Below are positions 6,901-25,302 of a stretch of DNA of 25,302 nucleotides, piece by piece (position 1 is the first letter of the stretch; the number at the start of each line of letters is the position of its first letter). The DNA lies in assembly GCA_000310025.1 (NCBI GenBank), contig FN649728.1, positions 6,732,167 to 6,757,468 on the forward strand. The letters run 5' to 3'. The position numbers and the translations under genes were made by a program. Source of the DNA: Ectocarpus siliculosus. Taxonomy: Eukaryota > Sar > Phaeophyceae > Ectocarpales > Ectocarpaceae. The notes under the pieces are model-generated. The model was not told where the DNA came from and did no database searches. It saw only the letters and a program-made list of their open reading frames with translations.

Positions 6901-8401
6901 GGGGTCTGCGTGCCCCCTCTCCGGTCTCTTTTCGTAATAGAGTTGAATTTACTCTCTTATGTGGACACGGGCGTGTCGCGCCACCCTCCTCTTAGATTGT
7001 TCGGTCGCTTTTGGTCGCTTGCGTCACTCTCCTCTCTCTTGCTCTTTATTCCGCCGCATGGACTTTCATTGTATCCGCTTCTTGTGTCCCCTCCCTTTTT
7101 TTTTTTTTAAGATGACACAACGAATCCATCTCTATCATAAAAAATAGTTTTTTGTGTTGTGCACCAAAAGCACGCACCACTGACGTCACCCTCGTCATCT
7201 AATTCCGCCGCCTCTTTTTTTCTTTCTTTCTTTTTCGCCCGCACCAGGGACGGCCGCAAGCTCGAGACGGACGTGTCGCCGACGCCGGTGTGGCGATCTG
7301 CAGGCACCTCTCCCTCCTCGCCTCCTCCCCTCCCCGCCCTACCACCGCCGCCGCTGCGGCGGAGAAACCCACTCAGAACGGGCCGGGGGGCGGGGGGGGC
7401 GGGAAGGGCCCGCTGTTGGCTTCTTGGTCTTCTGGTGGTGTTGGTGGTGAGACGGAGGCGGTGGGTGGCGGGGAGGAGGTGGAGTTGACGATGCCGGAGC
7501 TGAGCCGGATCGGGTTTGAGGTCAGTTGGGGGGGAGAGACAGCGGTAAGGCCGACAAGACGGTAAAGGCTTTCAGACAACCAGAGGACAGACAGAGAGAC
7601 AGGAGGGGGACGGACAGATGACAGATGACAGAAAGTAGGCTGGCTGACAGACGGACAGACAGGTTGGAGGACCGCCAGATTTTTGGCAAGAGAGATGGAC
7701 TGCAGTAAGACGGTCAGACATAGAGAACCCACAAGACAGGAAGAATAGACAGACAGACCCATGATAAAGGTATGTAGTAATTCCGTGGTCAATGGCCTAA
7801 CTAAGGCATGCCACGCGCGACGCCCAATCAGGTGGAGCAGTTAACGACGAGGGCGAAAGCGCTGGTGGAGGCGTCGCTAGCAGGAGACGCGGGCAAGGCG
7901 TCCCCTGTGAAGATTGAAGGCATGGTTGCCTCGGACGGACCTGGCAGCAATGGTGAGGGCGTCGATGAGTTACATCAATATTCCTGGTTAAAGCACACCA
8001 CTGATTTTATTTGGACAATATACACACAGAGAAAACCACACCACTGATTTAATTAGGAAAAAAAAATACACACAGAAAAGAGAACCACTGATTTTATTAG
8101 GAAAAAAAAATACTTCACACGGAACACCCGTTTAATATATCTTTATCCTCTGGGTTTGGGAAGTGTGATAGTGCCGATTCGCACCGTGCTGCTTGAATTT
8201 TTGACGTGCAATCCTGTTTTTTCTTCGTGCTTCATCCGAATTCGACCGACCCATCTCCACTTTCAGCAAAATTGCGTTCAGATTTATGTAAATTATATAT
8301 TTTCCCCTTTTTTTTTTTTCGCTACCAATGTGATATGTGGTATGCGTATGTATCTCGATCCCAGCGACTTTCACAACCTCCTGGACTGTTCGTCGCTACC
8401 A

Positions 8402-8439
<38 letters not shown>

Positions 8440-11400
8440 CTTCACATTAAAAACAGTTCCGATCTCTCTCTACCCAGTACCTTCGTATGTCCGTACTGAT
8501 CCAACACTCGACGCGGTCGATTCCCGTGGTCACAGGTTAACTTACCCTAAAAAGGTACACTCAAATAAACTGGCCCCGAGGGGTCCGCAAGTCAATAGAA
8601 ATCAACGACAGATATTCTGGAATCCTCCACTCCCTCTTCGCGATATGTACCGTATATGACACAAGATAGCACACCCCCTGGACCGATTTCCAAAGCTCGA
8701 TTACTCCACGACGAAGAGGATGCACAAACAAAACGATACATTTTCGAAAATTTCTCGACGAGACGATTCCAACGCTGCCGTTTTCGGCGCCGTGACTCTT
8801 CCTGCTGTTGAGAAATCGAGCTTTGAAAATCGGCCAAGGGGGTGTGTTATCTTGTGTCATATACGGTATATGCCTCAATCCCAGAGACTTTCTTCATCAC
8901 CCCCTGGATTTGTTGGTTCTCTCGGTGATGTGACCCACGCAGGGGTGGCTGGGTACGAGGAGTTCTCCTCCCGCAACCTTAGCAGAGCACCAGACTCTTG
9001 GGGAATGGCCGTTCACCTGCTACCCCACCAGGCGAAGGCTCTCTCCTGGATCAGGGCTCTGGCTGGGCGTGGTCTGGGGGGAGTTTTGTGTGACGACCGC
9101 GGCACCGGGAAGGTACTCCTTGCTGGGTGTACAGGTTTAATTTTTTCTTGTTTCCTTTTGTTTTTCTTACAAATCTACTTGCTGGGTGTACAGGTTTAAT
9201 TTTTTCTTGGTTCCTTTTGTTTTTCTTACAAATGTACTCCGAGCGCATCATCTCTCTGAACGATAAAAGAGACAAGAAGAGTCCGTCGAAGGCTGAATGG
9301 ATTAAAATTCAAGCTTCAATTTGTTCATGTGTTTTCTTGCAGAAACACACGGAATTCATAATCTCTCTGACAGATAACAACACAAAAAGAGTCCGCGGTA
9401 GGCTTGTGTCTTCTTCCGGGTTTCGTACTGACTGGTCTCAAATTCATATTTTTCATTTTGTTCATGTTAGCAGTCTCACACATTTGCGTCCTCTACCTGA
9501 GAGTTACTGGAACGTGACAGACGGTGACTGCGGCGGCGACTGTTGCGATGGCGCGGCTCTGACGTTGAAACAACCGTACCCGCGCTTCCCCCCCTTGGGT
9601 TGAAATTTGGTGTTGTCTTACTACACATCATGCTCCAAAACCAAGAATATAAAAATACTACCACTCCTTATTAGGGTATTTTAGTGTATGTCCCCCCCCC
9701 CAAAAAAAAAAAAAAAGATTACATTATTGTTTTGATGCGCGTGATAGACGGTGACTGCGGCGGCGACTGTTGCGATGGTGGCGGCTTGCCGGTCGGTCGT
9801 GGAGACTGAGCGCACCGACATCTTCCTGGCTCAGGAGAAGAAGCGCCTATCCGAGCGCTTGGTCAAAGGGGAGGCTGAGGTGTGGTTGATTGGTGCCTTG
9901 CGGTTGTTTTTTCCGCAGCTGTTGGTGGCGATGGTGTTGTCGTTGTTGATGATGTTTGGTGTTGTTGTCGTTGTTGTTTATGTTTTTATCTCTGCTGCTG
10001 CTATTCTTGCTGCTGTTGTATCATTTGTGTTGTGTTGGGGAGGGTTGAATGAAGACTGGTGGTAAGAGATTGAGCTGTCTGACGGTTTTAGAACCCTCTT
10101 CTCCTTCCGCACCCGCCGTTCTTTCCTGGCTCACACGCTTTGCCCTCCATACAATACCCCCTTCCGGGGACACTCCCCCCCCCGTCCAAAAAACTCCTTT
10201 TCAGGAATCCGGGGCTGCGTCGGGAGGATCCTCTGCCGGGGGTGCCGGTTCGAAATCGCAGGGTGCGGCTGCCAACGGCGGCGGAACTTCCTCGAAGGCG
10301 TCGCCGCCGAGACAGGGGACGCTTGCGATGCGTCCCCGGCCGGGAAGCCTCGCGCCGCCCCCGCAGCTGGTCGTGGTGCCCTCGTGGGCGATGGCGAGGT
10401 GGCACATGGAGCTGGCGCAGGCTTGTCCGCGCCTGGTCATCAAGGTGAGCGGCTTGCTGCCTTCACTCGTGGTTGTTGCTGTTGTTGCCTGCCGGTTCGG
10501 CCATATCGGATGGTGTATACAGGTATTGATGAGTATTTAAGAGGGATATTCTTTCCATTTTTGGTTGCCGGAAGGATAGCTGCCTCAATGCTTCGCTTGT
10601 TTTCGTTGGAGTTGTTTTGCCTTATTGTACGGTTTACAGTTTTTTACGTAAACATTAACATTAAAAATTGAAGAGGGGTGCGGATTCAATTTCGTTTTAT
10701 TTTTGTTGTATTTTCTTTGTTTTGGGAAGGACATATCAGGACCCCTTGGGGCCGCATTTTCAGAATCGAGTAGGTAGGTTTTGCAGACTCCACCCCCCAT
10801 ATTTAAGACAGGATAGGGAGAACATTTATGAGCCACCTTTGGCGAAGTAGGGAGGAACGATTGGCCATGGGGTGTGAATGGTACTGTGGGAACAACGCCC
10901 CGTCCTCTCGAGGACAGGTGGTCTAACAGCTGAGGCATGCAAAACATGAGTGCGCCACCCACTCCCTGTCCCCCCCCCCCCTCCCCGCAGGTGTGGGAGG
11001 AATGGAGGAGCCAGGAACACCATCATCGGTCAGCCACAGCAGCGGCGACAGCAGCAGCATCCTCGTCGCCGCCGTCCTCCTTGCAGCAGAAGCTGTCGCC
11101 GCAGGCCACCGCCGCCGGCGGTAGCGTTAGCGGTAAGGCACGGTTGCCGCCTACGGCAAGGCGTTCCTCGGCGGACGTGGTTCTTTGCTCCCTCGAGCGC
11201 CTGGCGGAGGTGGACGGAGGCGTCTCCGCGGACGCGCGTCTTGCGCGTTCCGTGCGGTGGAGCCAGGTAAGGAGAGTTATTGTACACAGGCGTCGGTGGG
11301 AGCCAGGTATTGTTTTGCCCACCCTTCTTTTTTGGGCCACAAGGTGACATTTTGTTTCGTTGTCAGCGGTGTTGGGGGCAGTTGTGGATCCGTCCCAGGA

Positions 11401-14400
11401 ACTCGACAAAGTTCGATACCTGTACATCGCGCCCAGCGTATCATCAGAGGATAGAATGAATGAATGCACTGTTGTTGTTGTTGTTGTTGTTGTTGCACAT
11501 TAAAAACCGTTCCAATCTCTCTACCCAGTACCTTCATCTGTCCGTACTAGCTAACACTTGACGCGGTCGGTCCCGTGGTTACAGGCTTACTCACCCAAAG
11601 AGACACGGTGTTGTCGTTTTATATTGCGGCTCGGCACGATGGCTCGGGACTACGGCTGTACAGTAGGTGACGAAGCAGACTGTGTGACTGAAATCGTGAA
11701 GAAAACTAGGGAAAGAAGCCTGTCCCTTTTCAGCGCAACAACCCCCCCTTGCATCTCACGGAACCCCCCCCCCCCCCCCCCCACCACGTCGGCAAAGGCC
11801 CCCCCCCCGCCGCCAAAAAACCCAGAACCCGCCCACTGCGAGCACTGGAGGACATGAGCGGCAACCTAGGCACGTGAGCAAAGCCCCCCCCCCCCCCCCT
11901 AAAANNNNNNNNNNNNNNNNNNNNNNNNNNNNNNNNNNNNNNNNNNNNNNNNNNNNNNNNNNNNNNNNNNNNNNNNNNNNNNNNNNNNNNNNNNNNNNNN
12001 NNNNNNNNNNNNNNNNNNNNNNNNNNNNNNNNNNNNNNNNNNNNNNNNNNNNNNNNNNNNNNNNNNNNNNNNNNNNNNNNNNNNNNNNNNNNNNNNNNNN
12101 NNNNNNNNNNNNNNNNNNNNNNNNNNNNNNNNNNNNNNNNNNNNNNNNNNNNNNNNNNNNNNNNNNNNNNNNNNNNNNNNNNNNNNNNNNNNNNNNNNNN
12201 NNNNNNNNNNNNNNNNNNNNNNNNNNNNNNNNNNNNNNNNNNNNNNNNNNNNNNNNNNNNNNNNNNNNNNNNNNNNNNNNNNNNNNNNNNNNNNNNNNNN
12301 NNNNNNNNNNNNNNNNNNNNNNNNNNNNNNNNNNNNNNNNNNNNNNNNNNNNNNNNNNNNNNNNNNNNNNNNNNNNNGGGTCCGGGGGGGGGAGGAGGAG
12401 GAGGAGTTGTTGTGAAGGAGTACGTGGTTCGGTGCGCGATGACCAAGCCGCAAGCCAAGGTTTACTCGGCCGTTGCCAGGTGAGTGAAGAGGGCGGGGGG
12501 GGGGCTTTGCTGAAGTGATTAGGTTGCCGCTCATGTACAGCAGTGCGCGCAGTGGGTGGGTTGTGGCTCTTTTGGCGGCAGGGAGGGGACTTTTGATGAC
12601 GTGATAGGTTGCCGCTCATGTACAGCAGTGCGTGCAGTTGGGTGGGTTGTGGCTCTGTTGACGGCAGGGAGGGAGCTCTGATGACGTCATAGGCTGCCGC
12701 TCCGTCTGTGTGGCGAGTTTTGGCCATGTACCTTTTTGTTGCCTCGTCGCTTGTGGTTTCTGGACGACGATTCCGCTTGTTTTTCGTGCGACGCTCCCGA
12801 CAGTTATTTTGTTTTTTGGCCTCAAGACGAGCTAGCGTGAAACCACTCCGCATACCCCCAATTCAGGAGAGATGAACTGTCTCATGCGATCATACACCCA
12901 CAAGTATAAATAACTCGGTTGTAATTTGGGTTGCGCCCCTCCCCCCCCCCCGGCAGATCGCGTGAGGTCGTGGCCGCTCTCTCCGGGGAAGGAACCACCA
13001 TTCCTCCCCCAGCGCTCGCTTCGAACGGTCTATCTACCCCGGCAACAACACCACCACCTCCAACGGCGGCGTCGTTGTCGGCAGCAAAAGGGGGGCCCGC
13101 TACGACGGGGGCGGGGGCGGGGGGGTGTGCCATGGAGGAGGCGCTGCTGGCCCTGCGGCGAGCGGCGCTGACCGGCGCCCTCGAGAAGCCGCCGCCCCCC
13201 GGCGCCCTGCTGTCCGCCGGGCAGGCGGAGGCTCAGAAGGAGGAGTTTTGGAGGGGGCACGTCAAGGTGGGTTGGATTGAGATTGAGGTCAAGGTTTGTA
13301 TGCATAGATGCATAGAGGTTGTTTTTTTTTGGGGGGGGGGGGGATTCTGGTCAGGGAGGGCTCAGAAGGAGGAGTTTTGGAGGGGGGCACGTCAAGGTGG
13401 GTAGGTGTTGAGATCGGGATACATGCGGGTTTATGGAGAATTTTGGGGCGGAGTTGTTGAGGTCAGGAAAGGCCCAGCAGGAGGAGTTTTTGACAAGGTG
13501 TACGTCTTGGATTGAGATTGAGCCCGGGACACATGCGGGTTTATAGAGTTTGTGTGTGTGTGTTTTTTTTGTTTGTTTTAGATAGGACACACACAACGAG
13601 AACAGAAGGACTACACACCCGTTCGATATTTTTTTGTCAGCAGGGATGGTGTGAAAGTTCGGAGGCCAAAATGGAACGACACCTTGCCGAAAACTGGAAA
13701 CACGTGGACCCTGCTGAAAGTCCTTGCGTTACTCCCTGCAATGCCAGAACATGTCTATTATTATATAGCTTTCATGTCTCACGTGTTTGGACCGTCCTTC
13801 TGTGTTCCTTTTTTCTTTTGCTGGAATTGGAACTCCGTCCTTCCCATCTAGTTTTTCACATGGTTCGTTCATCTTTTTTACTAATATTATTATCATTTTT
13901 TTTTTTTTGCAGGACTTGGAACTCAGCGTTCCGGAGCGATTAGAGAAGTACTCCGGCAAGCTGGCCAAGCTTGGCAGGGCTGTGGCGCGACTCGCCGCAG
14001 CGGGAAAGAAGGTAGATACGAGGCGACACGACCCGTGTGAACATAAGTTTGCCGAACGCTGAAGAACCTCTTTCTTTGCCCGAGGAGACTCGTTTCTTTT
14101 GTTCTCTGGGGTAGCAATTTATCCTACTCGTGTCTTTTTTTACCGCTGGGGTAGTATTTTATCCTTTTATTTCTCACGTTCTCCGGGGTATTAAATAGTT
14201 TACCCTATTTTATGGTCCAGGCACAACAATTTTTGTCCATTCGCGTCTTGTGCGATATGTTTTACTTGAAGGAAAAGGAATTGATATTTTGAAACATTAT
14301 GGGTTCTTCTTTTTGGAGGCTCGCCGTCTCGGGGGAAGTAAGGTTGTATGCATACTTGTTTAGTACTATCCTAACTACCGCGCAGAAGGCGTCAGCACCA

Positions 14401-17400: not shown

Positions 17401-17578
17401 CGAGGTCAATGGTCTAATGACTACGGCATGCACGACTATGAGTACACCCCCCCCCCCTCCTCCGCAGGCGAACAGCCCAGACCCGACGGGAGCAGCGTGC
17501 GCAGGGGTTCTCTGTTAGGTCTTGGCCCCATCGACGCCGTCCTCATCTTCGACGAAGGGCCTCCGATAACAACAAGAA

Positions 17579-17609
<31 letters not shown>

Positions 17610-20600
17610 GACGTCATGGTCTCGGGCAGCACTAGCGGCGGCGCTGCAGAGCCTCCTCACGCTGCCCCGGTGCGCGAGGCGCTCCTCTGCGCCAAGAGCC
17701 ATCCGCAGCATGCCGGCAACGGGCGGGGGGGCGGCGGCGGATGAGAACGGGAGGGTCGACGGGGGGGGAGTCGCCACGGCGGCGGGCAGGGCCGAGGGGG
17801 AGAGCGTGGTGACGGTGGTCCGATACGTGGCGAACGGCACCATCGAGGAGACGCTGGAGGGGGAAGGGGACAAGGGGATCAGTAGCCTTGGGGTGAGAGG
17901 AGGGGTTTGGTGTGTGTGTGTGTGGGACTGGGGGGGGGGGTGGTTGCTGGTAGAGCGCAAGGCGGATTTTGGAGGGCTGTGAAGTGACGGAGGAGGGGGG
18001 CGCGGGAAGGGCGAGGGTTTGCGGCTCCGGGAAGGCTTTCGGTTTGTGTGCTTTGAGGAGAACCCGCTTGATAGCTCCTCGAGATGGAGTCGACAATTGT
18101 TAGGGCGCTTCTCGCTTATTGGGAAATGTGTTTCCCAAGGGTGTAGCGCTTTGCTCCAATAGGCCTGACCGCCATGAACTGCTTCGAAGTCCCGTCTTGA
18201 GTTGTGTGTTTGTTTCCAAAGCTGTTGATGTCCAAAGCTGTTCTTGTTTTCTTCATTTTCGAACACCGTTCCGGACTTTGCTCAGTGCCTTCTGACATCC
18301 GTGGTCACAGGACAACCATCCACCACATAGCGTACACACAATGCGGAAAATAACCCTCAGAGACAAAACGGAAGGGACCCAACAACGTCAACACAAGCTT
18401 TTGGACGCTTCGTCTTTTTTGTTTTTGTTTGTGACCAGGGGAGACCACTTGGAGAGGTCCTTTTCGGCCCAACCTACAGCGACAGAGGGTCAGCGCCTAC
18501 GACCATAGCAAAACCAGTTTCGGCAGGCGCGACAAGCGAGGCCGCGTCCGCTCCTGAGACGCCGGCAGCAGCAGCAGCAGCAGCAGCGACAGCAGCAGCG
18601 CCGACACCAACAGCCGCCGCAGCAGCAGCAACAGCAGCAGCAGCAGCAGCAGCAGTAATACCAACAGCCGCAGCAGGTGCCGCCAAGGCGTCCGGGTCCG
18701 ATCCCATGGACGTGGACGTGGAGAGAGGCGCCGCAGTCGCCGCCGCCGCCGCTCCTCCTCCCGCTGCGGGCACGGAGGCCGGTGGAGAGGGTATCGCGGT
18801 CCGGTGTTCGCTGGAGGGGAAGACTTTCTTGAAGCAGGGAGAGGCGGCATCGGCATCGGCCTCCGAGGTAGGCGGTTGTCGTGTGTGTGTGTGTGTGTTT
18901 TTTTTTTTTAAATGAAAAAAATTCGTCATCTTCCCCAGGCACGCGTGTGTTCGTAATGTGTTCATTTTACGGCGGTAGAGGTTGTTTTTTCTGTGAAGAC
19001 AACAAGAACTGTACTACAACTATATTTAGTGTTTTGGTCCTGCGGAAAATAGGACGTATTATCAGGTGCAGCGTTTGGTTTTGGGGAAAAAACGAAATAT
19101 AACGAAAGGATGAAGAGAAAAATGGAGATCCATGAGTACGTACACTGAAAAGTGTAGCACACGTCTCACCCCGAAGTATGGGGGGACTGTCGCCATAATA
19201 AAATATGACGAAAACACAAAACACATGTTCATTTCGGGGTTTACATTTTCCAGGGTACGGAGGCGGTATCTCTGTCGGGGACGAAGAGAAAGGCCGCCGA
19301 TGGCGGCGGCGGCGGCGGTTGCAGTGGCGTGGACATGCTGGGCGCCAACGGCAAGCACTGGAGCGAGGGGGCTCCGCCGTTGCGGAGGACGTGCCCCTGG
19401 TCCCCCGTGGGGGTGGAGGACATCCTCGTTGAGGAAATGGTGCAGGTGAGTTGGGCCGCGTTCTAGAACCGGTTCTAGGACCGGTCCAACGCGTCCGTAA
19501 CGTGTCACAGACTCGGAGGTGTGTGTGTGTGTGTGAGGGGTGTACTCATGTGCAGCGGTTTTCTCCCAATGTTGTACGTGGCGCGCGTTTTCTGTTCTCT
19601 TTTGATATTTCGAAAGTGTGTGATACCGTCTTTATTGGTGCAGTAGTTGATGCTTAAGCTTGTGGCCACGGAAGGCGTCCGTGTCAGTTGGAACGGTGCG
19701 GGTGCTAGAAGGTACGGAGACCGGAAACGTTTGTTGCTGTCAATCCGACGGCGAACAAGAGCACTTAGAGGCCGAAGTCAAGCCTTGAGACTAGGCTAGT
19801 CAGCGAGAATCACTAAATAGACTGGTCAGCGCTGACGACATTATACTAGACTAGTCAGCGAGAATCACTGAATAGACTTGTCAGCGCTGGCTACCATTAG
19901 ACTAGGCTAGTCAGCGATTGTCACTAGAGTGTTCAGCGCTGACTATATAGTCTAATGTGTCATTTCGGTTTCTTAAAAGACAACAGCAGTAGTAAGTATG
20001 ACTTTTTTTGCGCGTTGTTGTTCACCTCCTCCCCCTCCTCCTCCTCCTCATCACGTTATGCGCGTCGTAATAATCGCCCCCAGATGAACCCCGACGACTT
20101 CGACACCGGGCGAGGCTGCTTCGACACCGATGAGACGAGGGTGTTCGCCAGGCTCGCGGACGGGGGACACCCAGTTCCACCCCCGCTCCTGTCGTACGCC
20201 GTGGACGCCACCCTTGCCACAACTCCCGGGCGTTCCTTCACGGAGAGGGTGAGTTTTTTTAAGAGAGAACGTGCATCATAAAAAAAAAAGTAATGTGTAT
20301 GTAGCAGCAGTTGCAAAGTTTACGCTGTTGACCTAGACTACATGTCGAAAACGTAGAACGCAACAATCCGGGTAGTCTTTATGTACGAGCCGTGCTTGCT
20401 TTTGTGCACCATGGGTTAACATGAGTTTTTATTGTTGCGATGGCGACGACGATGAAGAGGCTCCATAGAACTGACGATCGGACCTTTGCCGAGATACATG
20501 CTGTCATAGCTACCGTACATGACACAAGGTAACACACCCCCTGGACCGATTTTCAAAGCTCGATTACTCAAAGCTCGAAGAGGATGCACAAACGAAACGA

Positions 20601-20918
20601 TACATTTTCGACAAATCTCGACGAGACGGTTCCAACGCCCCCGTTTTCGGCGCTGTGACTCTTCCTGCTGTTGAGAAATCGAGCTTTGAAAATCGGTCAA
20701 GGGGGGGTGTTATCTTGTGTCATGTACGGTAACCCTAACCCTAACCCTAACCTTGACCCAGGACTATGTACCCGTTCGAGATAATATCTCAATCGAAGGG
20801 ATACATACGCTGACATCGTTACTTTGCCCTTGTTTTTGTTGTGTCATTTTTGTTGTTGTAGGCGTTATTTGAGGTCCGCGATCCGCATCTATCGTTACTT
20901 TGCCTTTGTTTTATCGTC

Positions 20919-20958
<40 letters not shown>

Positions 20959-23900
20959 CGTTGCTTCAGGTCCGCGATTTGCATCTGTTGGGCATCTCGC
21001 CCGAGCCCTTCCTCCACTGCATGCCCTGCATCGACCTCGCCATGCCTCCCGACCACAACATGGTGCTCAACGAGGCCGTCGAGGTTCCCAGCTGGATGAG
21101 CACCTCATTCGGGCAGGTAAGCAAGCACGCGTGCGTGCGCTAAACGTGCGTGTTCTGTTTGTGATTTTTCAATTGGCATCGACTGCGCTAGCCCGCTGAC
21201 CTTTTTTTGACAAAACTTCGGTCTTTTAAACAGGGGGCAAAAGAAACTGTTTGTGGTTTTTTCAATTGGCATGGACTGCGCTAGCCCGCTGACCCTTGTG
21301 ACGAAACGTCTGTCTGTAAATACACGGGGGATAAAAAGAAACACCAACACGACTCTTTGTGTGTGTGTTTTTTCTTTTTATTGTCTGCAACGGCCGCGGT
21401 AACCGGCTGGCCAATGAAAAGACGCCATCAGTCTTCTAGCGGGGTAATAACTGCGAACAGGCTTTCTGATGGAGGGTTAAGGGTTCTGCCGACAGAGGGC
21501 GGGGCAGGAGTTCGACGGCAGTAGCAGTGTCCTGCTTCTGAAATATAAGTTGTTCCTGTGTGCGTGTTGTTTGTTGTTTTTTTCGCGCGTTTCTCTCTAG
21601 CCGTGTGGCGTGTTGCGGTTGGATGCGTCTGTGTTATGTTTCGTGTGCGCTTTTTTTTTTGTTCCAATGGTTTCCTGTCGCGAGTTGTCCTACGTGTTCG
21701 AGCAACCCGTAGGACAAATCACAAAAGGGAGTCACTGGAACAACAAAAGACACACACAAACGTAACAAAGACACAACCCACCGAAACACGCAACGCGGCG
21801 AAAGAGACAAGCGCGTGAAAAAAAAAACACGCACACAGAAATAACTTATATATTTCAGAAGCAGGACACTGCTACTGTCGTCCAACTCCTGCCCCCCCCC
21901 TGTCGATAGAACCCTTCCATTAGATCGCATGTGTTTGCGGTTTGTACCCCGCCGTAAGACGATTGATTGACGTTTTTGCAACTGGTGAGCCGGGTAGCGC
22001 GGTCGTTGCAGACAATAAAGATACGCACACGAGTCGTGTTGGGCGTTTCTTTTTGTCCCCCGTTTTAGTTGCGGGCGTTTCTCTGACCGTGTTGCGTGTT
22101 TCGGTTGGGTTGGGTCTATGTTATGTTTGTGTGCGTGTTTTTTCGTTTTTTTTCGTGTTTTTTTTGTTTTCCCATGGTTTCCCTTTGATGTTTGTCCTAC
22201 GGCATCGATCGCTCACGATTCTGTTGAAGCCGAGGCGCCAATTAGTTGGCGTAAATGTGGTCTGTTGAAGCCGAGGCGCCAATTAGTTGGCGTGAATGTG
22301 GTCTGTTGAAGCCGAGGCGCCAATTAGTTGGCGTGAATGTGGTTAAGCTTCTAACAACGGAAACGTGGTGCGTGTTGCCGTATCACCATGATGTTTGTCG
22401 ATCGCCCCGCAGGACCTGAGCTGCTCCCTGAGCTATGTGGACAGACTCCCCTCCAATCGGAACAAGAAGCTCAAGAAGGTACGTCTTTCTACCAATTTCT
22501 TCGAAGCTTGGAGAAGAAGCGAGATGTACCGATTGCACCCCACATTTTCGCGATTGTTTTTTCCCCCGTCCCATTTAGTTTTTGTGACTGCTATACATAT
22601 GCATCGTGTTTTTTCTCTTTTTTCGTTACGTTTGACGCTACAGTTGGCAGTTACACGTAAGGTCGCAGTGATGTTGCATGTACAGCAGTCTTATTTGTCT
22701 CATCTATTTTCTGACTGCTACGTATGCATCGTCATTTTCTCTTTTCGTTACGTTTGACGCTGCAGTTGGCAGTTACACGTAGGGTCGCAGTGATGTTGCA
22801 TGTACAGCAGTCTTATTATGATTATGCATTTGGGTATTGAGGGTTGATTTTGTAAACGCCCTTGTTTCTTGGCAAGACAATCGATATGTCCAGACGACAA
22901 GACCTCTTTGCTAACCCGTCTCTCGCACTTGTATCGAATTCGGATGAACTTCGTCGCGCTTTCGATCTCTTTTTCGTTTTGCTGAAAATGGAAGCATCGT
23001 TTTTCCCCCCCTTCGGTAGAAATTTTGAGCCTCGATCTGAGAAATCGATGGCCAGCATATTTTGCATACTTGTGTTCATTAATCAAACAGTTTATTGCAG
23101 TGTTTCAGCCCTTGGTTTGGCGAAGGCATAGACAAAGTACAGACAGATGAAGACAACAACAACATCAATAATTATTGTTGATACACGACACAGTGGTCGC
23201 TTTACATTCAAACGGGGCTACGCCTTAATTTTTTGGCGAGATCCATACATGTCTTTGATCCACATACATTGACCTTTTTTCACGCGAACGGGGTTGCTCA
23301 TCACAACCAACTGTGGCGAGATTGTACACATTTGACGTTGATATGCCAACAATGTCCAAGTTACACTCAAACGCTCAAACGGGGTTGCCCATCCCCGGGG
23401 TTGGAACTCCGAACAGGCGTTGTCCCCACGGGAGTCGAGCAGGAGAGAGGGCGAGCAGCCCGGGGCGGGGAGGAGGAACAAGACTAGCGTGGAGGAGTGG
23501 ACCAAGATGGTGAGTTTTTCCGGCCATCTTTCTTTGGGTTATCAGCAGAATATGTTGTGTGTTTCGCGCCTTTGTGCTGTGTTGTGTAAGACTGCTGTAG
23601 TGATCACTGTTTTGTGTTGTGTAAGACCGCTGACATTACCATGCCGTTATTGGCGCTTTTAAGACCACATGGTAGTGTCAACGGATTGGCGTTAAATGAG
23701 AGTGCGAGTTATCGCTCCACCCTATCGCTCCACCCCGACGACCGTCTAGGGGGGGACGAGTATACAAGTACCCCTACCAAAGCTCGCCGTTGAAAAAAAT
23801 GTGTCACATGTTTCAATTCTGTTGATTTTCTCGTTTACTCGTGTTGCTTTGTTAAGGGGAAATGCTGCTGTTGATGTTTTTGGTGATGGTGTTGTGTTGG

Positions 23901-25302
23901 TTGTTTTTGTTGCCGCTGTGAGTGCTCCTGAATCACCACCGTCCACCGTCCGCCGTGTGGAACCAACAAAATACCGCAGGAGGATACCCTCCTCGTCAGC
24001 GCGGTGCAGCAGTTCGGAGAGAACTGGGTCCTTGTGGCTTTCAGCATTAACAAGTGCCCGATCCTAAGGGGGCGCATGAGGTGTGTTTTGTGTTTTGTTC
24101 TTAATTGGCATCGACCGCGCTGACCGTTTGTGTGTGTTTGTTTTATTTGACTAGCATCGCGCTTACAGTAGCGTCCTCGTCTGTTTCAGCATCAACAAGT
24201 GCCTAATCCTGAGGGGATGCATGATGTCTTGTGTCTGTGCATGGTGTCTTATGTCTGTGTCTTCTTCAACTATAATACCTCGGCGACATACACCCCGATT
24301 AGCCCTCTGACCAATGAACAGCGGCTGGTCTTACGTGGCCATGATGGGGTTCGATTGCGCTTTCTAGGCTTGTGTGTCGCCCCATTTGTTCCAGACGTGA
24401 GCTTGAATTCCTTTCGGAATGTGTCGTATGTCAGCCAGGGTCACGCAGGAGATATACTTGAGTTTTTGTTTTGCCTTTTCCACCTTCCCTCTGCAGTGCA
24501 TGAGGCCCGCAGCCTTTTGTTTCTCGCTGCGGATTTGTTGCGTTTTCGTCCCACTTGTTCCGGGCGCCAGTCTACGACTCTCGGTGTACGTTTGACGCAC
24601 ACGTTAGTGGTCATGTAGGAGGAAGCAACAGCAGGACACTATAATAGTGGTCCCGATGCAGCAGTGAGATGCGTAGATGTCGTAGACTACAAGTGTTGGT
24701 GTGTGTGTGTTTTTTTTTTTTTTTTTTTTTTAGTGGTGGGGGCGCAATATATCTATCGGGGCGTAGTGACAGAAAAAAATTACCGCGTGATATCGAGACC
24801 CGAGGTATGGGCGAAAGGACTAGTACCAGTAATCAGTGGTTGTTGTGCCAGTTTTTTTTTACCTCGATGTATCGGAAACCACGCTATTCGGGACCGCGGT
24901 ACGGTATATCGGGACAAACCACCACTATAATGCTGCTGCTGCTGCTTTGTTGGATTTTTTTTTTTTTTCCACATTTCCTCCTCCTGTGGTGATTGGCTCC
25001 AACTTGTCTTCCAAACAAAAAAAATCAGTAATACTTCCATTTTTGATGATTTTTCTCCTGCGTGTTTGCCGACCGCATGCTGGTTAGGTCGGGTTCACGC
25101 AAGCACCACACCCCTGCCCTTTTATTTGACGATTTTCATCCCGTTTGTTTGCCGGAAACCCGTGTGCTGGTTTAGGTCGGGGAGTCAGAACAAGGCACGA
25201 CACGCAAACCTCGTGGCCCTAGGGGCTGCTGGCCAGCGCTCGCCGAGGGGAGCGAGGCCAAAGAGCGTCAGGCTTCCGCCGACTTACCGCGGGACGGCTA
25301 TA
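2..25302 (+). CDS. EP400/PIE1-type HSA-SNF2-SANT chromatin protein, partial, about 30 exons
   Basis: This is one spliced gene, open at both window ends. Proteins with HSA, SNF2 helicase and SANT domains in this order are the EP400/Domino/PIE1 group, nuclear subunits of SWR1- or NuA4-type complexes: the HSA helix binds actin-related proteins, the SNF2 motor drives H2A.Z exchange, and SANT contacts histones or the acetyltransferase module. What is seen: Gln/Ala-rich N-terminal part (residues about 1-275 of the visible chain), low-complexity linker, HSA (about 532-581), P-loop (about 755-775), motif Ia (about 868-893), post-gap helicase-lobe segments and a C-terminal SANT. Most exon junctions keep phase 0. 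Oddities: the ATPase core is broken by Ala/Gly/Pro-rich insertions, motif VI is not recognisable, and motif II is missing or lies in the assembly gap. Yeast Eaf1 (HSA and SANT without ATPase) is the alternative functional comparison. Domain calls are firm; the exon 14-15 and 19-20 joins are not. Confidence 0.85.
299..1035 (+). other. intron 1
   Basis: GTGGGA donor, GGCAG acceptor. About 340-415 carries a dispersed repeat containing CCTCGAGAGG that returns inverted at about 10847-10935. No gene seen. Confidence 0.65.
1036..1104 (+). CDS. exon 2: Gln-Ala repeat
   Basis: 23 codons of Gln/Ala with one Arg, phase 0 at both ends, strong CAG|GTAAGT donor. Flanking ORFs are short and unlike coding sequence. 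The composition matches exons 1, 3 and 4, which supports the join. Confidence 0.75.
1105..2127 (+). other. intron 2
   Basis: AT-rich, with a C homopolymer near 1450. It holds a two-copy tandem repeat of about 126 bases (1531-1782) and a second imperfect duplication built around CTGGCTTGTCACG (about 1804-1955). No gene seen. Confidence 0.65.
1531..1782 (+). repeat. tandem repeat, 2 x about 126 bases
   Basis: GAAATCCAGCCTAG starts near 1531 and again near 1657. Both copies run through AAGAAGTTGGCCTAATCCAG and ACAGGTGTTGGCCTG to CCTATATAGTC with few differences. Confidence 0.85.
2128..2244 (+). CDS. exon 3: Gln-Ala repeat
   Basis: 39 codons of nearly pure Ala-Gln alternation (one His, one Val), phase 0 at both ends, CAACAG acceptor and CAG|GTGACC donor. 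An in-frame CAG six bases upstream could shift the acceptor by two codons. The third bases alternate (GCT, GCC, GCG; CAG, CAA), so the repeat is older than a pure DNA slippage tract. Confidence 0.72.
2245..2966 (+). other. intron 3
   Basis: Contains a long GTT/GCT-rich stretch (about 2338-2515) that opens poly-Gln/Asn-like frames on the minus strand, followed by AT-rich sequence and a T-run before the acceptor. No gene seen. Confidence 0.6.
2967..3113 (+). CDS. exon 4: Gln-rich segment ending in a charged helix
   Basis: 49 codons. It begins with Ala-Gln repeats, passes through long Gln runs broken by His and Leu, and ends in a Glu/Lys/Ala helix (AEEAKRAEAAKKTE). T-rich tract and CTAG acceptor; GAG|GTGGGT donor; phase 0 at both ends. 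The end looks like the start of a coiled coil. Confidence 0.75.
3114..3851 (+). other. intron 4
   Basis: Holds three degenerate units of about 40 bases around ATAGTAGCAGGTGGGC (about 3270-3400). It also holds a two-copy duplication around GAGCAGAGGTCGGAAC and GAAGACCAACAGCA (about 3468-3590). No gene seen. Confidence 0.65.
3852..4046 (+). CDS. exon 5: charged lead and 25-residue poly-Ala tract
   Basis: 65 codons. ADEQVKAKEAKD is followed by 25 uninterrupted Ala (3888-3962), coded mainly by a GCT block and then a GCG block, then an Ala/Pro/Lys stretch. Phase 0 at both ends (TTAG acceptor, GAG|GTGCGT donor). The charged lead continues the helix of exon 4. Pure codon blocks point to recent triplet expansion. 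Confidence 0.75.
4047..4720 (+). other. intron 5 with minisatellite
   Basis: About 4455-4715 holds four degenerate units of roughly 60 bases around CGACTCAAAACACGG and CTAAAACACTTTC. The last unit runs up to the splice acceptor. A G/T-rich GGGTGG run lies near 4210. No gene seen. Confidence 0.65.
4721..5269 (+). CDS. exon 6: long low-complexity Pro/Gly/Ala linker
   Basis: 183 codons, the largest exon, phase 0 at both ends (GGCAG acceptor, GAG|GTGGGT donor). It runs from a Pro run and a Ser/Ala segment through a basic patch (LPRKRRFRPVG, possible nuclear localisation signal) to Gly/Ala repeats. It closes with a non-repetitive end (QWYEHYHAVRRVRDNE) that looks folded. The open frame also extends upstream into intron 5, but base composition changes sharply at the acceptor. 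Confidence 0.8.
5270..6116 (+). other. intron 6
   Basis: 847 bases of unremarkable AT-balanced sequence ending in a pyrimidine tract and CTTCAG. Short open frames on both strands have no recognisable content. Nothing else seen. Confidence 0.6.
6117..6335 (+). CDS. exon 7: basic helical segment before HSA
   Basis: 73 codons, phase 0 at both ends (CTTCAG acceptor, AAG|GTACAC donor). The non-repetitive, Arg/Lys-rich sequence includes LTRFQLSQMLEEKTKAFKDV and a Lys-Pro-Arg end. It predicts as amphipathic helix. Position just before HSA is where EP400 and Eaf1 proteins carry basic helical sequence, but I recognise no named domain. Confidence 0.82.
6336..6647 (+). other. intron 7
   Basis: Almost pure T/pyrimidine tract, typical of a strong 3' splice region. 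No gene. Confidence 0.7.
6648..6797 (+). CDS. exon 8: HSA domain
   Basis: 50 codons matching the core of the HSA (helicase-SANT-associated) domain: KTLWDFLLDEMRLIATDYNE followed by ERKLARHLLRGVANRTRLAR. The W-D-[FY]-L-L-[DE]-E-M and [AT]-T-D-[FY]-x-x-E-R-K pattern is characteristic of EP400, Domino, PIE1, SRCAP, Swr1 and Eaf1. In those proteins the helix binds nuclear actin and actin-related proteins. Phase 0 at both ends; TGACAG acceptor and GAG|GTGAAA donor. Confidence 0.93.
6798..7247 (+). other. intron 8
   Basis: T/C-rich with a CTTT repeat before the CACCAG acceptor. Nothing else seen. Confidence 0.65.
7248..7520 (+). CDS. exon 9: HSA tail and Gly/Ala/Glu linker
   Basis: 91 codons, phase 0 at both ends (CACCAG acceptor, GAG|GTCAGT donor). 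The early part (GVAICRHLSLL) may close the HSA helix. It is followed by Pro/Ala, a Gly run and an acidic stretch (GGEEVELTMPELSRIGFE). Acidic sequence between HSA and the motor is common in EP400/SWR1 proteins, where it can bind histones; that role here is inference. Confidence 0.78.
7521..7831 (+). other. intron 9
   Basis: About 7567-7760 is rich in GACA/CAGA units, forming a degenerate simple-sequence tract. The 3' end (GGCATGCC) resembles the ends of introns 13 and 21. No gene. Confidence 0.65.
7832..7952 (+). CDS. exon 10: linker before the SNF2 motor
   Basis: Forty codons plus one base: VEQLTTRAKALVEASLAGDA and then a Ser/Gly linker. It ends AATG|GTGAGG in phase 1. The next exon starts with the two bases that complete a Gly codon, so the join is phase-consistent. 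No named domain. Confidence 0.75.
7996..8120 (+). repeat. tandem repeat, 3 units of about 43 bases
   Basis: ACCACTGATTT begins three times, followed by AT-rich spacer and ACACACAGA or a decayed form of it. Copies two and three share GGAAAAAAAAATAC. Confidence 0.8.
8402..8552 (+). repeat. GTT-linked dispersed repeat, copy 1
   Basis: A run of GTT triplets, then CATTAAAAACAGTTCC, TACCCAGTACCTTC, GTCCGTACT, GACGCGGTCG and CCCGTGGTCACAGG. A second copy lies at 11467-11600 and a shortened one near 18255-18312. On the minus strand it would be a body with an AAC tail, a form seen in some SINE-like elements. Confidence 0.75.
8650..8866 (+). mobile_element. MITE copy A, Tc1/mariner (Stowaway)-like, 217 bases
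   Basis: Terminal inverted repeats of about 56 bases start CCGTATATGACACAAGAT and differ at about five positions. Both ends are flanked by TA (8648-8649, 8867-8868), the target duplication of Tc1/mariner elements. It is too short to code for a transposase. A near-identical copy of equal length is at 20513-20729. Confidence 0.88.
8943..9112 (+). CDS. exon 11: SNF2 motifs Q and I (P-loop, first half)
   Basis: Starts in phase 1 and ends in phase 0 at AAG|GTACTC. It encodes LLPHQAKALSWIRALAGRGL and GGVLCDDRGTGK, the SNF2 pattern L-x-x-[YH]-Q-x-x-[GA]-[LV]-x-W-[IL] followed by G-G-[IV]-L-x-D-[DE]-x-G-x-G-K. The usual DEMGLGK is DDRGTGK here: the G-x-G-K core is kept, while Glu is Asp and Leu is Thr. 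The following exon supplies the Thr of GKT. Confidence 0.92.
9113..9747 (+). other. intron 11 with a pseudo-exon
   Basis: A two-copy tandem repeat of 59 bases (GCTGGGTGTACAGG at 9122 and 9181) sits at the 5' end. A second duplication around CATCTCTCTGA and AGAGTCCG lies at about 9245-9400. A copy of the exon 12 start lies at 9513-9551. Confidence 0.7.
9513..9551 (+). pseudogene. decoy copy of the exon 12 start, with its acceptor
   Basis: 38 of 39 bases match 9740-9778, the intron 11 acceptor and the first codons of exon 12. Identity then stops. Spliced in frame it reads 13 codons to a TGA at about 9560. Its CAG acceptor is a better consensus than the TAG of the real exon. Confidence 0.82.
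9748..9879 (+). CDS. exon 12: P-loop Thr and following helix
   Basis: 44 codons, phase 0 at both ends. It starts T-V-T-A-A-A, completing GKT of the Walker A motif and the helix behind it, and continues with a charged helix (LAQEKKRLSERLVKGEAE). In active SNF2 proteins this stretch is short and leads to motif Ia; here it is longer. Confidence 0.85.
9880..10204 (+). other. intron 12
   Basis: GTT/GTG-rich first half, pyrimidine-rich second half, TTTTCAG acceptor. Nothing else seen. Confidence 0.65.
10205..10444 (+). CDS. exon 13: low-complexity insertion and SNF2 motif Ia
   Basis: 80 codons, phase 0 at both ends (TTTTCAG acceptor, AAG|GTGAGC donor). About 53 residues of Ser/Gly/Ala/Pro come first. 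Then follows QLVVVPSWAMARWHMELAQA and CPRLVIK, the SNF2 motif Ia region (in EP400: LVVV, W-x-x-E-L, CP-x-L). The inserted low-complexity block splits motif I from Ia and is unusual for the family. Confidence 0.9.
10445..10990 (+). other. intron 13
   Basis: Holds the inverted copy of the intron 1 dispersed repeat (about 10847-10935). Its 3' end (GGCATGCA, ATGAGT, C-run, CCGCAG) resembles that of intron 21. No gene. Confidence 0.65.
10991..11266 (+). CDS. exon 14: SNF2 segment between motifs Ia and II
   Basis: 92 codons, phase 0 at both ends (CCGCAG acceptor, CAG|GTAAGG donor). It begins VWEEWRSQE, carries a Ser/Ala/Pro/Gln insertion, then SADVVLCSLERLAEV and ARLARSVRW. This fits the SNF2 pattern of a hydrophobic strand (DVV-[LI]-x-S) and a V-R-W strand directly before the DEXH box. 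A weaker second donor lies at 11307. Confidence 0.87.
11267..11904 (+). other. intron 14 sequence left of the assembly gap
   Basis: Contains a copy of the exon 14 donor (about 11296-11312), GTT-linked repeat copy 2 (11467-11600), a possible eroded motif II/III segment (11664-11750, see findings) and long C runs. From 11773 it is the left arm of an inverted repeat. Confidence 0.55.
11467..11600 (+). repeat. GTT-linked dispersed repeat, copy 2
   Basis: GTT run, CATTAAAAACCGTTCC, CTACCCAGTACCTTC, GTCCGTACT, GACGCGGTCG, CCCGTGGTTACAGG in the same order and orientation as 8402-8552. Confidence 0.75.
11905..12377. other. assembly gap, 473 N
   Basis: Unread sequence between inverted arms with long C and G runs. 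The SNF2 motifs II and III and the 5' edge of exon 15 would be expected here or just to the left. Confidence 0.99.
12378..12479 (+). CDS. exon 15 (5' edge in gap): start of the second helicase lobe
   Basis: Open from the gap in the frame Gly-run, then VVVKEYVVRCAMTKPQAKVY and SAVAR. This fits the SNF2 pattern [KE]-x-[YE]-x-[VI]-x-C-x-[ML]-[ST]-x-x-Q-x-x-x-Y, which follows motif III and starts the linker to the C-terminal lobe. It ends in phase 2 at CCAG|GTGAGT, matched by exon 16. Confidence 0.85.
12480..12956 (+). other. intron 15
   Basis: A tandem repeat of 85 bases in about 2.3 copies (GGTTGCCGCTCATGTACAGC at about 12522 and 12607, partial near 12692) follows the right arm of the gap inverted repeat. 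C run and CGGCAG acceptor. No gene. Confidence 0.7.
12957..13266 (+). CDS. exon 16: SNF2 inter-lobe segment with insertion
   Basis: Starts in phase 2 with the third base of an Arg codon, ends in phase 0 at AAG|GTGGGT. It encodes SREVVAALSGEG, a Pro/Thr/Ala/Gly-rich insertion, then MEEALLALRRAALTGALE and KEEFWRGHVK. ALLALRRAALTGALE stands where SNF2 proteins carry L-x-x-L-R-[KR]-x-C-N-H-P; the C-N-H-P core is lost. Confidence 0.82.
13267..13912 (+). other. intron 16 with exon-end copies
   Basis: The last 36 bases of exon 16 plus its donor recur at 13360-13402 and, decayed, at 13471-13500. A decayed copy of the exon 17 start lies at about 13807-13845. T-run and GCAG acceptor. Confidence 0.75.
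13360..13500 (+). repeat. tandem copies of the exon 16 3' end and donor
   Basis: CTCAGAAGGAGGAGTTTTGG and GCACGTCAAGGTGGGT of the true exon end (13232-13272) recur almost unchanged at 13361-13402. A third, weaker copy (GGCCCAGCAGGAGGAGTTTT) starts at 13471. Units are spaced about 110-130 bases. Confidence 0.85.
13913..14011 (+). CDS. exon 17: SNF2 second lobe, SGKL motif
   Basis: 33 codons, phase 0 at both ends. DLELSVPERLEKYSGKLAKL is followed by GRAVARLAAAGKK. The S-G-K-[LF]-x-x-L-x-x-x-[LV]-x-x-L-x-x-x-G-[HKR]-[KR] pattern opens the SNF2 helicase-C lobe; the next exon starts VLVLG, the first strand of motif IV. Confidence 0.93.
14012..14945 (+). other. intron 17
   Basis: About 14083-14215 has three degenerate units around GGGGTA-TTTATCCT. 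Decayed copies of the exon 18 start sit at about 14751-14786 and 14859-14885. A 12-base palindrome CATCACGTGATG lies near 14555. No gene. Confidence 0.65.
14946..15033 (+). CDS. exon 18: SNF2 motif IV region
   Basis: VLVLGALPDARLLVHQYLVE then TDVPHECWA. It aligns with the SNF2 pattern [RK]-V-L-[IV]-[FL]-[ST]-x-x-x-x-x-L-[DL]-x-[LH]-x-x-[YF]-L-x-x-x-x-x-x-[CY]. Phase 0 start, phase 1 end at GCAG|GTGTGG. The Asp-Gly that normally follows (R-[IL]-D-G) is not seen. Confidence 0.88.
15264..15308 (+). CDS. exon 19: short segment after motif IV (3' end uncertain)
   Basis: Phase 1 start fits exon 18. It encodes A-G-T-D-S-Q-P-S-S-R-Q-G-S-G-L, placed like the SNF2 G-[ST]-[TD]-x-x-x-x-R-Q segment. The end chosen is C|GTGAAG in phase 1. 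The same frame stays open to 15474, so a longer exon with a donor near 15419 or 15474 is possible. Confidence 0.55.
15512..15782 (+). CDS. exon 20: Ala/Pro-rich insertion in the helicase lobe
   Basis: The frame encodes GNGEMFPNVAEEES, then a long Ala/Pro/Ser/Val stretch ending H-N-P-L-G-S-F-P-S-R in phase 2 at CACG|GTGAGC. The 5' acceptor is uncertain; AAAG at 15511 in phase 1 joins the chosen exon 19 end. Low complexity, unlike any SNF2 core. Confidence 0.6.
15919..15972 (+). pseudogene. phase-incompatible copy of the exon 21 start
   Basis: TCCAGG, CACCAGCCACG and GAAGCCAGCC here mirror TCCAGG, CACCAGTCACG and AAGCCCGCC at 16061-16100, acceptor included. Joined to the phase-2 end of exon 20 it reads to a TAA near 15988, so it cannot substitute for exon 21. 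Confidence 0.72.
16066..16241 (+). CDS. exon 21: helicase motif V-like segment
   Basis: Starts with one base completing the Arg codon left by exon 20 and ends in phase 1 at AACG|GTAGGG; both joins fit. It encodes APVTPPKPAHERLWSGVQGP, then PVLLAPPSAILEAVAGGSGL. The VLL...S...A-G-G-x-G-L order recalls SNF2 motif V (FLLSTRAGG-x-G-[IL]-N-L), but it is spread out by extra residues. Confidence 0.75.
16565..16790 (+). repeat. degenerate pyrimidine-rich tandem array
   Basis: Repeated CGTCTCT / CCGACCCCATGTT / CTCCCTACCC words in units of about 45-50 bases, roughly four to five copies. Confidence 0.7.
16852..16978 (+). repeat. tandem repeat, 2 x 66 bases
   Basis: GGTGTTTRCCATCGGG starts at 16852 and 16918. 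Both copies share TTGGGTTTTCGTCGCTTGGC and AACGACGTTGTAAAAC. CGTCG-CTTGGCAA-CGACG can form a hairpin. Confidence 0.88.
17468..17892 (+). CDS. exon 22: motif V strand, eroded motif VI, SNF2 tail
   Basis: Phase 1 start, phase 0 end (CTTGGG|GTGAGA), 141 codons. RGSLLGLGPIDAVLIFDEGP matches the SNF2 strand G-L-G-[IL]-[ND]-x-x-x-[AV]-D-x-V-[IL]-[IF]-[FY]-D. The usual Q-A-x-x-R-x-x-R-I-G-Q (arginine fingers) is absent. Instead there is a Thr-Ala run and about 85 low-complexity residues. The family tail follows intact: ESVVTVVRYVANGTIEETLE fits V-x-V-Y-R-[LFY]-[VI]-x-x-x-[TS]-[IV]-E-E-x-[ML]. Confidence 0.9.
17893..18438 (+). other. intron 22
   Basis: G-rich first 150 bases with a GT run. A shortened copy of the GTT-linked repeat lies at about 18255-18312 (CCGTTCC, CATCCGTGGTCACAGG). 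T-rich tract and GACCAG acceptor. No gene. Confidence 0.65.
18439..18867 (+). CDS. exon 23: Ala-rich linker with GCA-triplet tracts
   Basis: 143 codons, phase 0 at both ends. It begins GRPLGEVLFGPTYSDRG, then long Ala runs coded by GCA triplets (about 18570-18655), an acidic patch (SDPMDVDVERG) and VRCSLEGKTFLKQGEAAS. DNA of these tracts is CAG-type repeat read in the Ala frame. No named domain. Confidence 0.82.
18868..19253 (+). other. intron 23
   Basis: GT-dinucleotide run and T-run near the donor, then AT-rich sequence to TTTTCCAG. Nothing else seen. Confidence 0.65.
19254..19445 (+). CDS. exon 24: unrecognised C-terminal segment
   Basis: 64 codons, phase 0 at both ends (TTCCAG acceptor, CAG|GTGAGT donor). 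TEAVSLSGTKRKAADGGGGG contains a basic patch that could be a nuclear signal. It then runs to KHWSEGAPPLRRTCPWSP and VEDILVEEMVQ. The non-repetitive, Trp-containing second half looks folded. No family recognised. Confidence 0.8.
19446..20083 (+). other. intron 24
   Basis: A perfect 16-base palindrome (CTAGAACCGGTTCTAG, 19463-19478), a GT run and a three-unit tandem repeat with palindromes (19789-19952). CTC-rich tract and CCCAG acceptor. Confidence 0.65.
19789..19952 (+). repeat. tandem repeat, 3 x about 56 bases, palindromic units
   Basis: CTAGTCAGCGA recurs with TCAGCG starting about 19800, 19855 and 19911. Each unit ends in a TCAGCGCTG-type core; GTCAGCGCTGAC (19825-19836) and GACTATATAGTC (19941-19952) are perfect palindromes. 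Confidence 0.85.
20084..20248 (+). CDS. exon 25: unrecognised acidic segment
   Basis: 55 codons, phase 0 at both ends (CCCAG acceptor, AGG|GTGAGT donor). MNPDDFDTGRGCFDTDETRV is followed by FARLADGGHPVPPPLLSYAV. Well-mixed composition suggests a folded segment; no family recognised. Confidence 0.82.
20513..20729 (+). mobile_element. MITE copy B, Tc1/mariner (Stowaway)-like, 217 bases
   Basis: Same ends (CCGTACATGACACAAG and its inverse), same length and orientation as 8650-8866, TA at both sides (20511-20512, 20730-20731). Internal sequence differs by scattered substitutions. Both terminal repeats carry the same ATG/CAT-type change relative to copy A. Confidence 0.88.
20731..20752. repeat. 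interstitial telomere-type repeat (CCCTAA)n
   Basis: About 3.5 units of AACCCT start exactly at the A of the MITE's right TA. TTAGGG-type telomeres are found in many stramenopiles and animals. Confidence 0.85.
20970..21116 (+). CDS. exon 26: unrecognised segment with PSW motif
   Basis: 49 codons, phase 0 at both ends (TTCAG acceptor, CAG|GTAAGC donor). VRDLHLLGISPEPFLHCMPC, then MPPDHNMVLNEAVEVPSWMS. Rich in Met, Cys, His and Pro and clearly non-repetitive, so likely under constraint. No family recognised. Confidence 0.85.
21431..21960. repeat. fold-back element, arms about 260 bases
   Basis: The two halves are imperfect reverse complements. GGCAGTAGCAGTGTCCTGCT (left) pairs with its complement on the right near 21860, and the centre closes with TTGTCCTACG / CGTAGGACAA. 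Pairing extends weakly past both ends. A third, direct-oriented arm lies at about 22035-22205. No coding capacity. Confidence 0.82.
22221..22343 (+). repeat. tandem repeat, 3 x 41 bases with hairpin core
   Basis: CTGTTGAAGCCGAGGCGCCA starts at 22221, 22262 and 22303. The copies differ at one base. CGCCAA-TTAG-TTGGCG in each unit can form a six-base-pair stem. Confidence 0.95.
22413..22478 (+). CDS. exon 27: short basic segment
   Basis: 22 codons, phase 0 at both ends (CCGCAG acceptor, AAG|GTACGT donor): DLSCSLSYVDRLPSNRNKKL then KK. The short length makes it less certain, but splice sites and phase agree and the basic end continues into exon 28. Confidence 0.75.
22479..23416 (+). other. intron 27
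   Basis: A two-copy repeat of about 122 bases (22583-22820). Degenerate units around AACGGGGTTGC and GGCGAGAT (about 23206-23400) run up to the acceptor. No gene. Confidence 0.7.
22583..22820 (+). repeat. tandem repeat, 2 x about 122 bases
   Basis: GTTACGTTTGACGCTRCAG, TTGGCAGTTACACGTA and CAGTGATGTTGCATGTACAG occur in both copies, the second starting near 22705. Confidence 0.9.
23417..23509 (+). CDS. exon 28: basic stretch and start of SANT
   Basis: 31 codons, phase 0 at both ends (GAACAG acceptor, ATG|GTGAGT donor). ALSPRESSRREGEQPGAGRR then NKTSVEEWTKM. W-T begins the first SANT/Myb helix, which continues directly in exon 29. The Arg/Lys stretch may be a nuclear signal. Confidence 0.88.
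23510..23979 (+). other. intron 28
   Basis: A short duplication of GTGTTGTGTAAGACYGCTG (about 23580-23632) and GTT-rich sequence before the CCGCAG acceptor. Nothing else. Confidence 0.65.
23980..24080 (+). CDS. exon 29: SANT/Myb domain core
   Basis: 33 codons plus two bases. EDTLLVSAVQQFGENWVLVA then FSINKCPILRGRM. This fits the SANT pattern W-x-x-x-E-D-x-x-L-x-x-x-V-x-x-x-G-x-N-W-x-L-V-[AS] of EP400, PIE1 and Eaf1. The R-G-R before the last helix resembles PIE1. It ends in phase 2 at ATGAG|GTGTGT. Confidence 0.92.
24081..25175 (+). other. intron 29
   Basis: Holds a third copy of the AATTGGCATCGAC segment (24103), a decayed copy of the second half of exon 29 with its own acceptor-like CAG (24181-24226), T-runs and a decayed copy of the exon 30 start (about 25057-25110). 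No gene. Confidence 0.7.
24181..24226 (+). pseudogene. decayed copy of the exon 29 3' half
   Basis: TTTCAGCATCAACAAGTGCC and ATCCTGAGGGG mirror TTTCAGCATTAACAAGTGCC and ATCCTAAGGGGG at 24040-24073. The donor is changed to GATG, so it is not a working exon as seen. Confidence 0.82.
25176..25302 (+). CDS. exon 30 (partial): last SANT helix and basic tail
   Basis: Starts with one base that completes the Arg codon of exon 29 (phase 2) and is open to the window end (42 codons). RSGSQNKARHANLV matches the final SANT helix R-[ST]-x-x-Q-x-x-x-R-[HY]-x-x-L. An Arg/Lys/Pro-rich segment follows. TTTAG acceptor. Confidence 0.82.

Follow-up and report, generated by a model that had tools for sequence, protein, structure and literature searches.

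How do partial copies of exon ends, splice sites included, come to lie inside the introns that adjoin them, and are splice junctions a preferred target of the process that put them there? The question is raised by a long gene in the window examined here, that is, the whole stretch of 25,302 nucleotides of Ectocarpus siliculosus DNA that was analysed. According to the original prediction, nine exon edges of this gene each have a decayed copy (an echo) in the flanking intron, at a rate pointing to repeated tandem duplication across splice sites. The analysis described below indicates that the echoes are most probably what remains of short local duplications that arose, without any particular target, in a long gene rich in introns.

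The host gene and its introns

On the forward strand, a model of 28 exons was set by GT/AG dinucleotides and an unbroken reading frame. The model consists of three chains, the breaks between them being an N gap and the interval 15034-16065, where further exons may lie. Exons 21, 26, 29, and 30 of the original prediction, whose numbering is kept for the echoes, correspond to exons 19, 24, 27, and 28 of the model. The joined translation matched the HSA domain (Pfam PF07529, 24.8 bits, cut-off 23) and the SNF2-related domain (Pfam PF00176, 41.7 bits, cut-off 24.9), the latter over the first 92 of 290 profile positions, and a Myb-like domain was also recovered (Pfam PF00249, 25.2 bits, cut-off 24.4). 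No Pfam match to a helicase C-terminal lobe was obtained in the joined translations, which are interrupted by the N gap and perhaps lack unmodelled exons. Matches in PDB were weak and comprised several SNF2-family ATPases, INO80 among them. A set of HSA, SNF2 ATPase, and Myb/SANT domains is one that we take to define the EP400/Domino/SWR1-like grouping of SNF2 remodellers, and on our reading of the domain set the host gene would encode a member of it. A search of Rfam gave no match at gathering score for a known RNA. The first four exons (1-298, 1036-1104, 2122-2244, and 2967-3113) encode Q/A-rich repeats, and their ends resemble one another as coding repeats.

Several other elements were observed in the introns. 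An imperfect hairpin of 431 bases occupies 21480-21910 (-266 kcal/mol, z -23); its ends, about 60 bases long, are found again at many sites across the genome, and the hairpin is probably a foldback-type element. Two copies of a short, MITE-like element with inverted ends lie in two introns, at about 8640-8870 and 20510-20730, and among the matches listed for a 116-base probe of this element at least 40 in the genome are full length, the copies in the window included. A duplicated intronic stretch (8346-8372 and 8866-8892, E 0.08) is seemingly split by the first of these copies, and the insertion would therefore postdate the duplication. Interstitial telomere-like CCCTAA repeats (20731-20753) adjoin the second.

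Copies of exon edges in adjoining introns

The predicted echoes were compared with their own junctions against dinucleotide shuffles, and 9 of the 10 copies, at eight of the nine junctions, had p-values between 6e-4 and 4e-9 (Table 1). The claim of a local copy in the adjoining intron is accordingly upheld for eight exon edges, the end of exon 14 being the marginal case: its echo is not convincing and fails once the roughly 53 junctions of the gene are allowed for. It should be noted that this echo lies partly within the 32 bases beside the junction that were left unsearched by the equal-sensitivity test described below. That test found all eight remaining junctions at p<1e-4, and five of them (exons 12, 16, 17, 26, and 29) at p<1e-5. 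Self-alignment of the window recovered six of the claimed junctions; exon 17 went unreported, probably because low-complexity masking removed a T-run, and exon 26 fell below the threshold, its core alone reaching E 1.6. Near the end of exon 16, two of the copies also align with each other (13359-13434 with 13471-13544, E 2.8e-4).

Table 1. Features of the window discussed in the text. Echo p-values are against dinucleotide shuffles unless marked EST (equal-sensitivity test); percentages are identities over aligned columns.
Feature	Positions	Strand	Source and splice site	Support
Exons 7-14, HSA domain and first part of SNF2 domain	6117-11266	+		Pfam PF07529, PF00176 above cut-off; open frame
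Two exons carrying the Myb-like domain	23417-24080	+		Pfam PF00249
Exon 12 start, echo	9513-9558	+	9740-9786; real acceptor 9748; acceptor copy CAG, next base 9521	94% over 47, E 1.3e-13; p 2e-7
Exon 14 end, claimed echo (marginal)	11291-11310	+	donor 11266	20-column match, score 72, p 0.0016 uncorrected
Exon 16 end, first echo	13359-13414	+	13230-13283; donor 13266, GT kept	93% over 56, E 2.4e-14; p 8e-9
Exon 16 end, second, weaker echo (one of three copies)	13461-13510	+		p 6e-4
Exon 17 start, echo	13809-13844	+	13898-13932	p 2.5e-4; EST p<1e-5
Exon 18 start, echo	14746-14775	+	14935-14964; acceptor 14946	83% over 30, E 0.0025; p 1.5e-4
Exon 21 start, echo	15919-15967	+	16061-16108; acceptor 16066	78% over 49, E 0.0016; p 1.5e-5
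Exon 26 start, echo, partly TTG-rich	20856-20894	+	20952-20990; acceptor 20970	p 1.1e-4; EST p<1e-5
Exon 29 end, echo	24173-24251	+	24028-24103; donor 24080	76% over 79, E 1.7e-7; p 4e-9
Exon 30 start, echo	25042-25093	+	25125-25181; acceptor 25176	77% over 57, E 0.0015; p 1.1e-7
Intronic tandem duplication, unit 125	1528-1780	+		self-comparison of window
Intronic tandem duplication, unit 85	12492-12702	+		self-comparison of window
Intronic tandem duplication, unit 92	21155-21342	+		self-comparison, self-alignment
Intronic tandem duplication, unit about 128	22568-22817	+		self-comparison, self-alignment

As a control, 115 pairs of non-local acceptors were sampled, of which 15% had p<0.05 and one had p<0.001, the smallest value being 6e-4. 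Weak p-values at splice sites are thus inflated because splice regions resemble one another beyond what shuffles reproduce. The second copy at the end of exon 16 is no better than the best pair of this control, and the other echoes are better. Convergence on the splice motif is ruled out by the control as the whole cause of the echoes.

The original prediction also stated that each copy includes the AG or GT of its junction. This does not hold for exon 17, where the echo has TG at the place of the AG of the source acceptor. As read from the alignments, the dinucleotide is retained in seven of the eight firm echoes, and 5.5 would be expected from the identities, two of which are estimates (P=0.22). 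Retention is therefore no higher than expected, which tells against the view that the echoes are kept as working alternative or decoy splice sites. Some of the copies do score like splice sites in use: at exon 16 the first donor copy and the real donor both score 6.4, at exon 21 the copied acceptor (5.0) exceeds the real acceptor (4.0), and the acceptor copy of exon 12 scores 1.1 against -0.4 for the acceptor at 9748, which is the weakest of the acceptors scored in the gene with a simple weight matrix. The donor copy of exon 29, however, scores -1.1, and among the nine scored echo sites it is the exon 26 acceptor alone whose use would lengthen the exon (by 96 bases) with the frame kept and no stop added; the other eight bring a frame shift, added stops, or both. 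If used, the echo sites would set exon ends at 13396 and 24225 and exon starts at 9521, 14757, 15924, 20874, and 25088. A splicing role for the echoes is consequently quite improbable, and we would read them as neutral relics.

Splice junctions compared with intronic points

Local duplication was surveyed across the window by banded, gapped self-alignment with strict scoring and a local null, and pairs were counted at E<0.1. A search with lax scoring was set aside because it was in the linear phase, giving 21-31 pairs at E<0.1 in each of six shuffles. Under strict scoring the window gave 47 pairs, whereas 10 local shuffles gave 0.2 on average. Pairs less than 500 bases apart with a score of at least 36 comprised 25 direct and 3 inverted ones, and the pairs are thus near, in the same orientation, and above chance, as local direct duplication predicts. 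The copies lie mostly 40-240 bases apart and are of mixed age. In addition to the intronic duplications listed in Table 1, purely intronic ones occur at 9116-9238, 16856-16975, 19788-19943, and 22220-22343. Tandem, abutting units are common among the intronic pairs, and several of the junction pairs are spaced. Seven pairs in which one copy is wholly or partly exonic had identities of 0.76-0.94 and 29 intronic pairs a median of 0.82, with no difference between the two sets (P=0.94), and duplication units total about 6% of intron length (19,820 bases, the N gap included); several of the identities and unit lengths in these computations were entered by hand. The repeated local duplication of the original prediction is thus well supported by direct-orientation copies, and the step from their rate to a process acting at junctions fails, because local duplications confined to introns reach much the same density.

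Two counts bear on whether junctions are hit preferentially, as had been proposed. For the first, each pair was slid along the gene, and placements within one intron or across one junction were kept. Six of 27 independent places, some of which may be a single event, cross a splice junction, and random placement gives 4.2 (sd 1.9; P=0.23). Twelve of the 47 pairs were excluded from this count, namely nine in the repetitive exons 1 and 3, two linking the CAG repeats of exon 4 to an intron, and one that is wholly exonic on one side (exon 16). When weaker echoes were added by hand, P became 0.12, 0.07, and 0.03, figures that reflect one-sided counting since the additions were made to the junction side alone. 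For the second count, the equal-sensitivity test, junctions and intronic points were treated alike in segment (64 bases), length searched, and statistics. An echo at p<0.001 was found at 8 of 53 junctions (15.1%) and at 222 of 2,357 intronic points (9.4%, 95% interval 6.0-12.9%; P=0.12). At other cut-offs P was 0.051 (p<1e-4) and 0.28, and with the intronic rate set at either end of its interval it was 0.013 (low end) or 0.375. Once low-complexity segments were dropped, 5 of 40 junctions and 197 of 1,996 intronic points had an echo. All eight junction echoes lie beyond 9.7 kb, and none was found at the 21 junctions before that point. On our reasoning an untargeted process would produce equal rates at junctions and intronic points. 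The junction rate is nominally the higher, with a borderline excess at p<1e-4, but the counts largely agree with what the original prediction had itself named as its refutation, namely junctions hit only by chance.

A modest enrichment at junctions is possible. The stronger view, that splice junctions are true hot spots where duplication starts at or across the splice site, for example through transcription-linked breaks, can point to the borderline excess and to the value obtained at the low end of the interval, but the remaining cut-offs and the placement count do not bear it out. Moreover, exon copies change slowly, which by our reasoning would already favour the detection of junction echoes. 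In other blocks of the genome, where exons were tentatively predicted by a gene finder trained on the host gene, no pair crossed an edge of the 36 predicted exons in blocks C3, C4, and C5 (score at least 10, length at least 60 bases). Two pairs in C4 do cross the edge of an exon that was predicted with less certainty and is too short for that count, and eight pairs in block C2 cross edges of its 19 predicted exons; C2 was left out of the edge count, seemingly being a repeat array. This block (L015-L018) is crowded with repeats, direct as well as inverted, at every distance, and its predicted translation is repetitive. Taken with these observations, junction hot spots are rather unlikely.

Duplication as such is dense in this gene. 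The window holds 28 places in 24.8 kb (1.13 per kb), compared with 46 places in about 152 kb of usable sequence elsewhere (0.30 per kb; 0.20-0.41 in individual pieces), a ratio of 3.7 (P 3.5e-7) drawn from a small sample that mixes genes with intergenic sequence, with counts entered by hand and an E cut-off slightly stricter in longer blocks. The contrast is partly a matter of selection, the window having been chosen for its echoes. It is also the part of the observations that untargeted duplication leaves without explanation.

Origin of the echoes and comparison with known systems

The echo regions of exons 12, 16, and 29 were searched against the whole genome (189 Mb, 492 contigs), simple repeats and very common words being skipped. 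For exons 12 and 16 there was no match beyond the region itself; for exon 29 there were three others, 43-53 bases long, which fall in the intron and outside the echo. The echoes of these three regions are therefore local copies, and a paralogous or mobile source was rejected for the three regions searched. The likely explanation is local duplication of an ordinary, untargeted kind, which happens to be dense in this gene. A duplication unit that happened to cover a splice site would leave the gene with that site in duplicate. As long as splicing used the one closer to the body of the exon, the mRNA would stay the same and the allele could persist, and the inner copy together with the spacer would become intron and decay, the intron gaining about one unit. 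Through local direct duplication of this kind introns would become longer and would come to contain surplus splice-like sites. The molecular cause may have been slippage or end joining that copied a nearby template. A plain tandem event does not suffice for the several junction echoes that stand apart from their source, such as one that aligns over 47 columns at a distance of 227; these need later insertion or copying from a nearby template.

Three further accounts can be weighed against untargeted duplication. The gene may be a hot spot of local duplication in which duplications spanning the splice sites already present work like a ratchet: with every event, use would pass to the exon-body copy, one unit would be added to the intron, and a spare splice site would be left. 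If true, this would amount to a measurable supply of cryptic sites (units being about 6% of intron length), and on the present evidence it seems unlikely. Alternatively, the introns themselves could have been born by tandem duplication of AGGT-bearing exon segments, the echoes being a trace of this event. The mechanism is documented elsewhere, in PMC3443670, and it predicts homology between donor and acceptor. Of 27 introns, 26 were tested for this homology, and five reached p<0.05 and three (introns 1-3) p<0.001; for introns 1-3, however, both of the matched parts are coding sequence of the Q/A repeats, and one match enters the intron by a single base. Intron birth was rejected on the grounds that strong donor-acceptor homology was not found outside the Q/A-repeat exons among the 26 introns, and is very improbable. 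The echoes can hardly be an assembly artefact in which overlapping or haplotypic pieces were joined twice. There is an N gap in the window and its flanks are largely N, but the six junction pairs of the self-alignment differ by 6-24%, far above overlap errors, and the distances between copies vary from place to place.

If untargeted duplication is the correct reading, frequent local duplication in a lineage would leave decayed copies of junctions in introns about as often as it copies points within introns. A count that mostly agrees with chance then provides a simple null against which to judge claims on cryptic splice sites or on the growth of introns.

Short local (tandem) duplications are a common source of insertions and of change in intron length. 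The pairs in the window are alike in their direct orientation, short distance, and mixed age; here they are mostly intronic, and they are 3.7 times as dense as in the sequence sampled elsewhere in this genome. Alternative splice sites can also arise by duplication of a splice site. The window likewise has two copies of an acceptor or donor within about 40-240 bases, known in this case from sequence alone, but most of the extensions that these would produce break the frame. Intron gain by tandem genomic duplication was reportedly described by Hellsten in 2011 and by Gao and Lynch in 2009. As presented in PMC3443670 and PMC2891723, this process involves a local duplication that copies splice-site sequence, as is the case here. 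It differs in that existing junctions have here been copied into existing introns, and in that donor-acceptor homology is absent here outside the Q/A repeats. In novel introns of Drosophila, direct repeats overlap the splice sites (PMC2809761). The two cases are similar in having short direct repeats at splice sites that are visible in dot-plots. The repeats in Drosophila flank both ends of a new intron (PMC2809761), whereas those of the present gene pair one end of an intron with the inside of that same intron.
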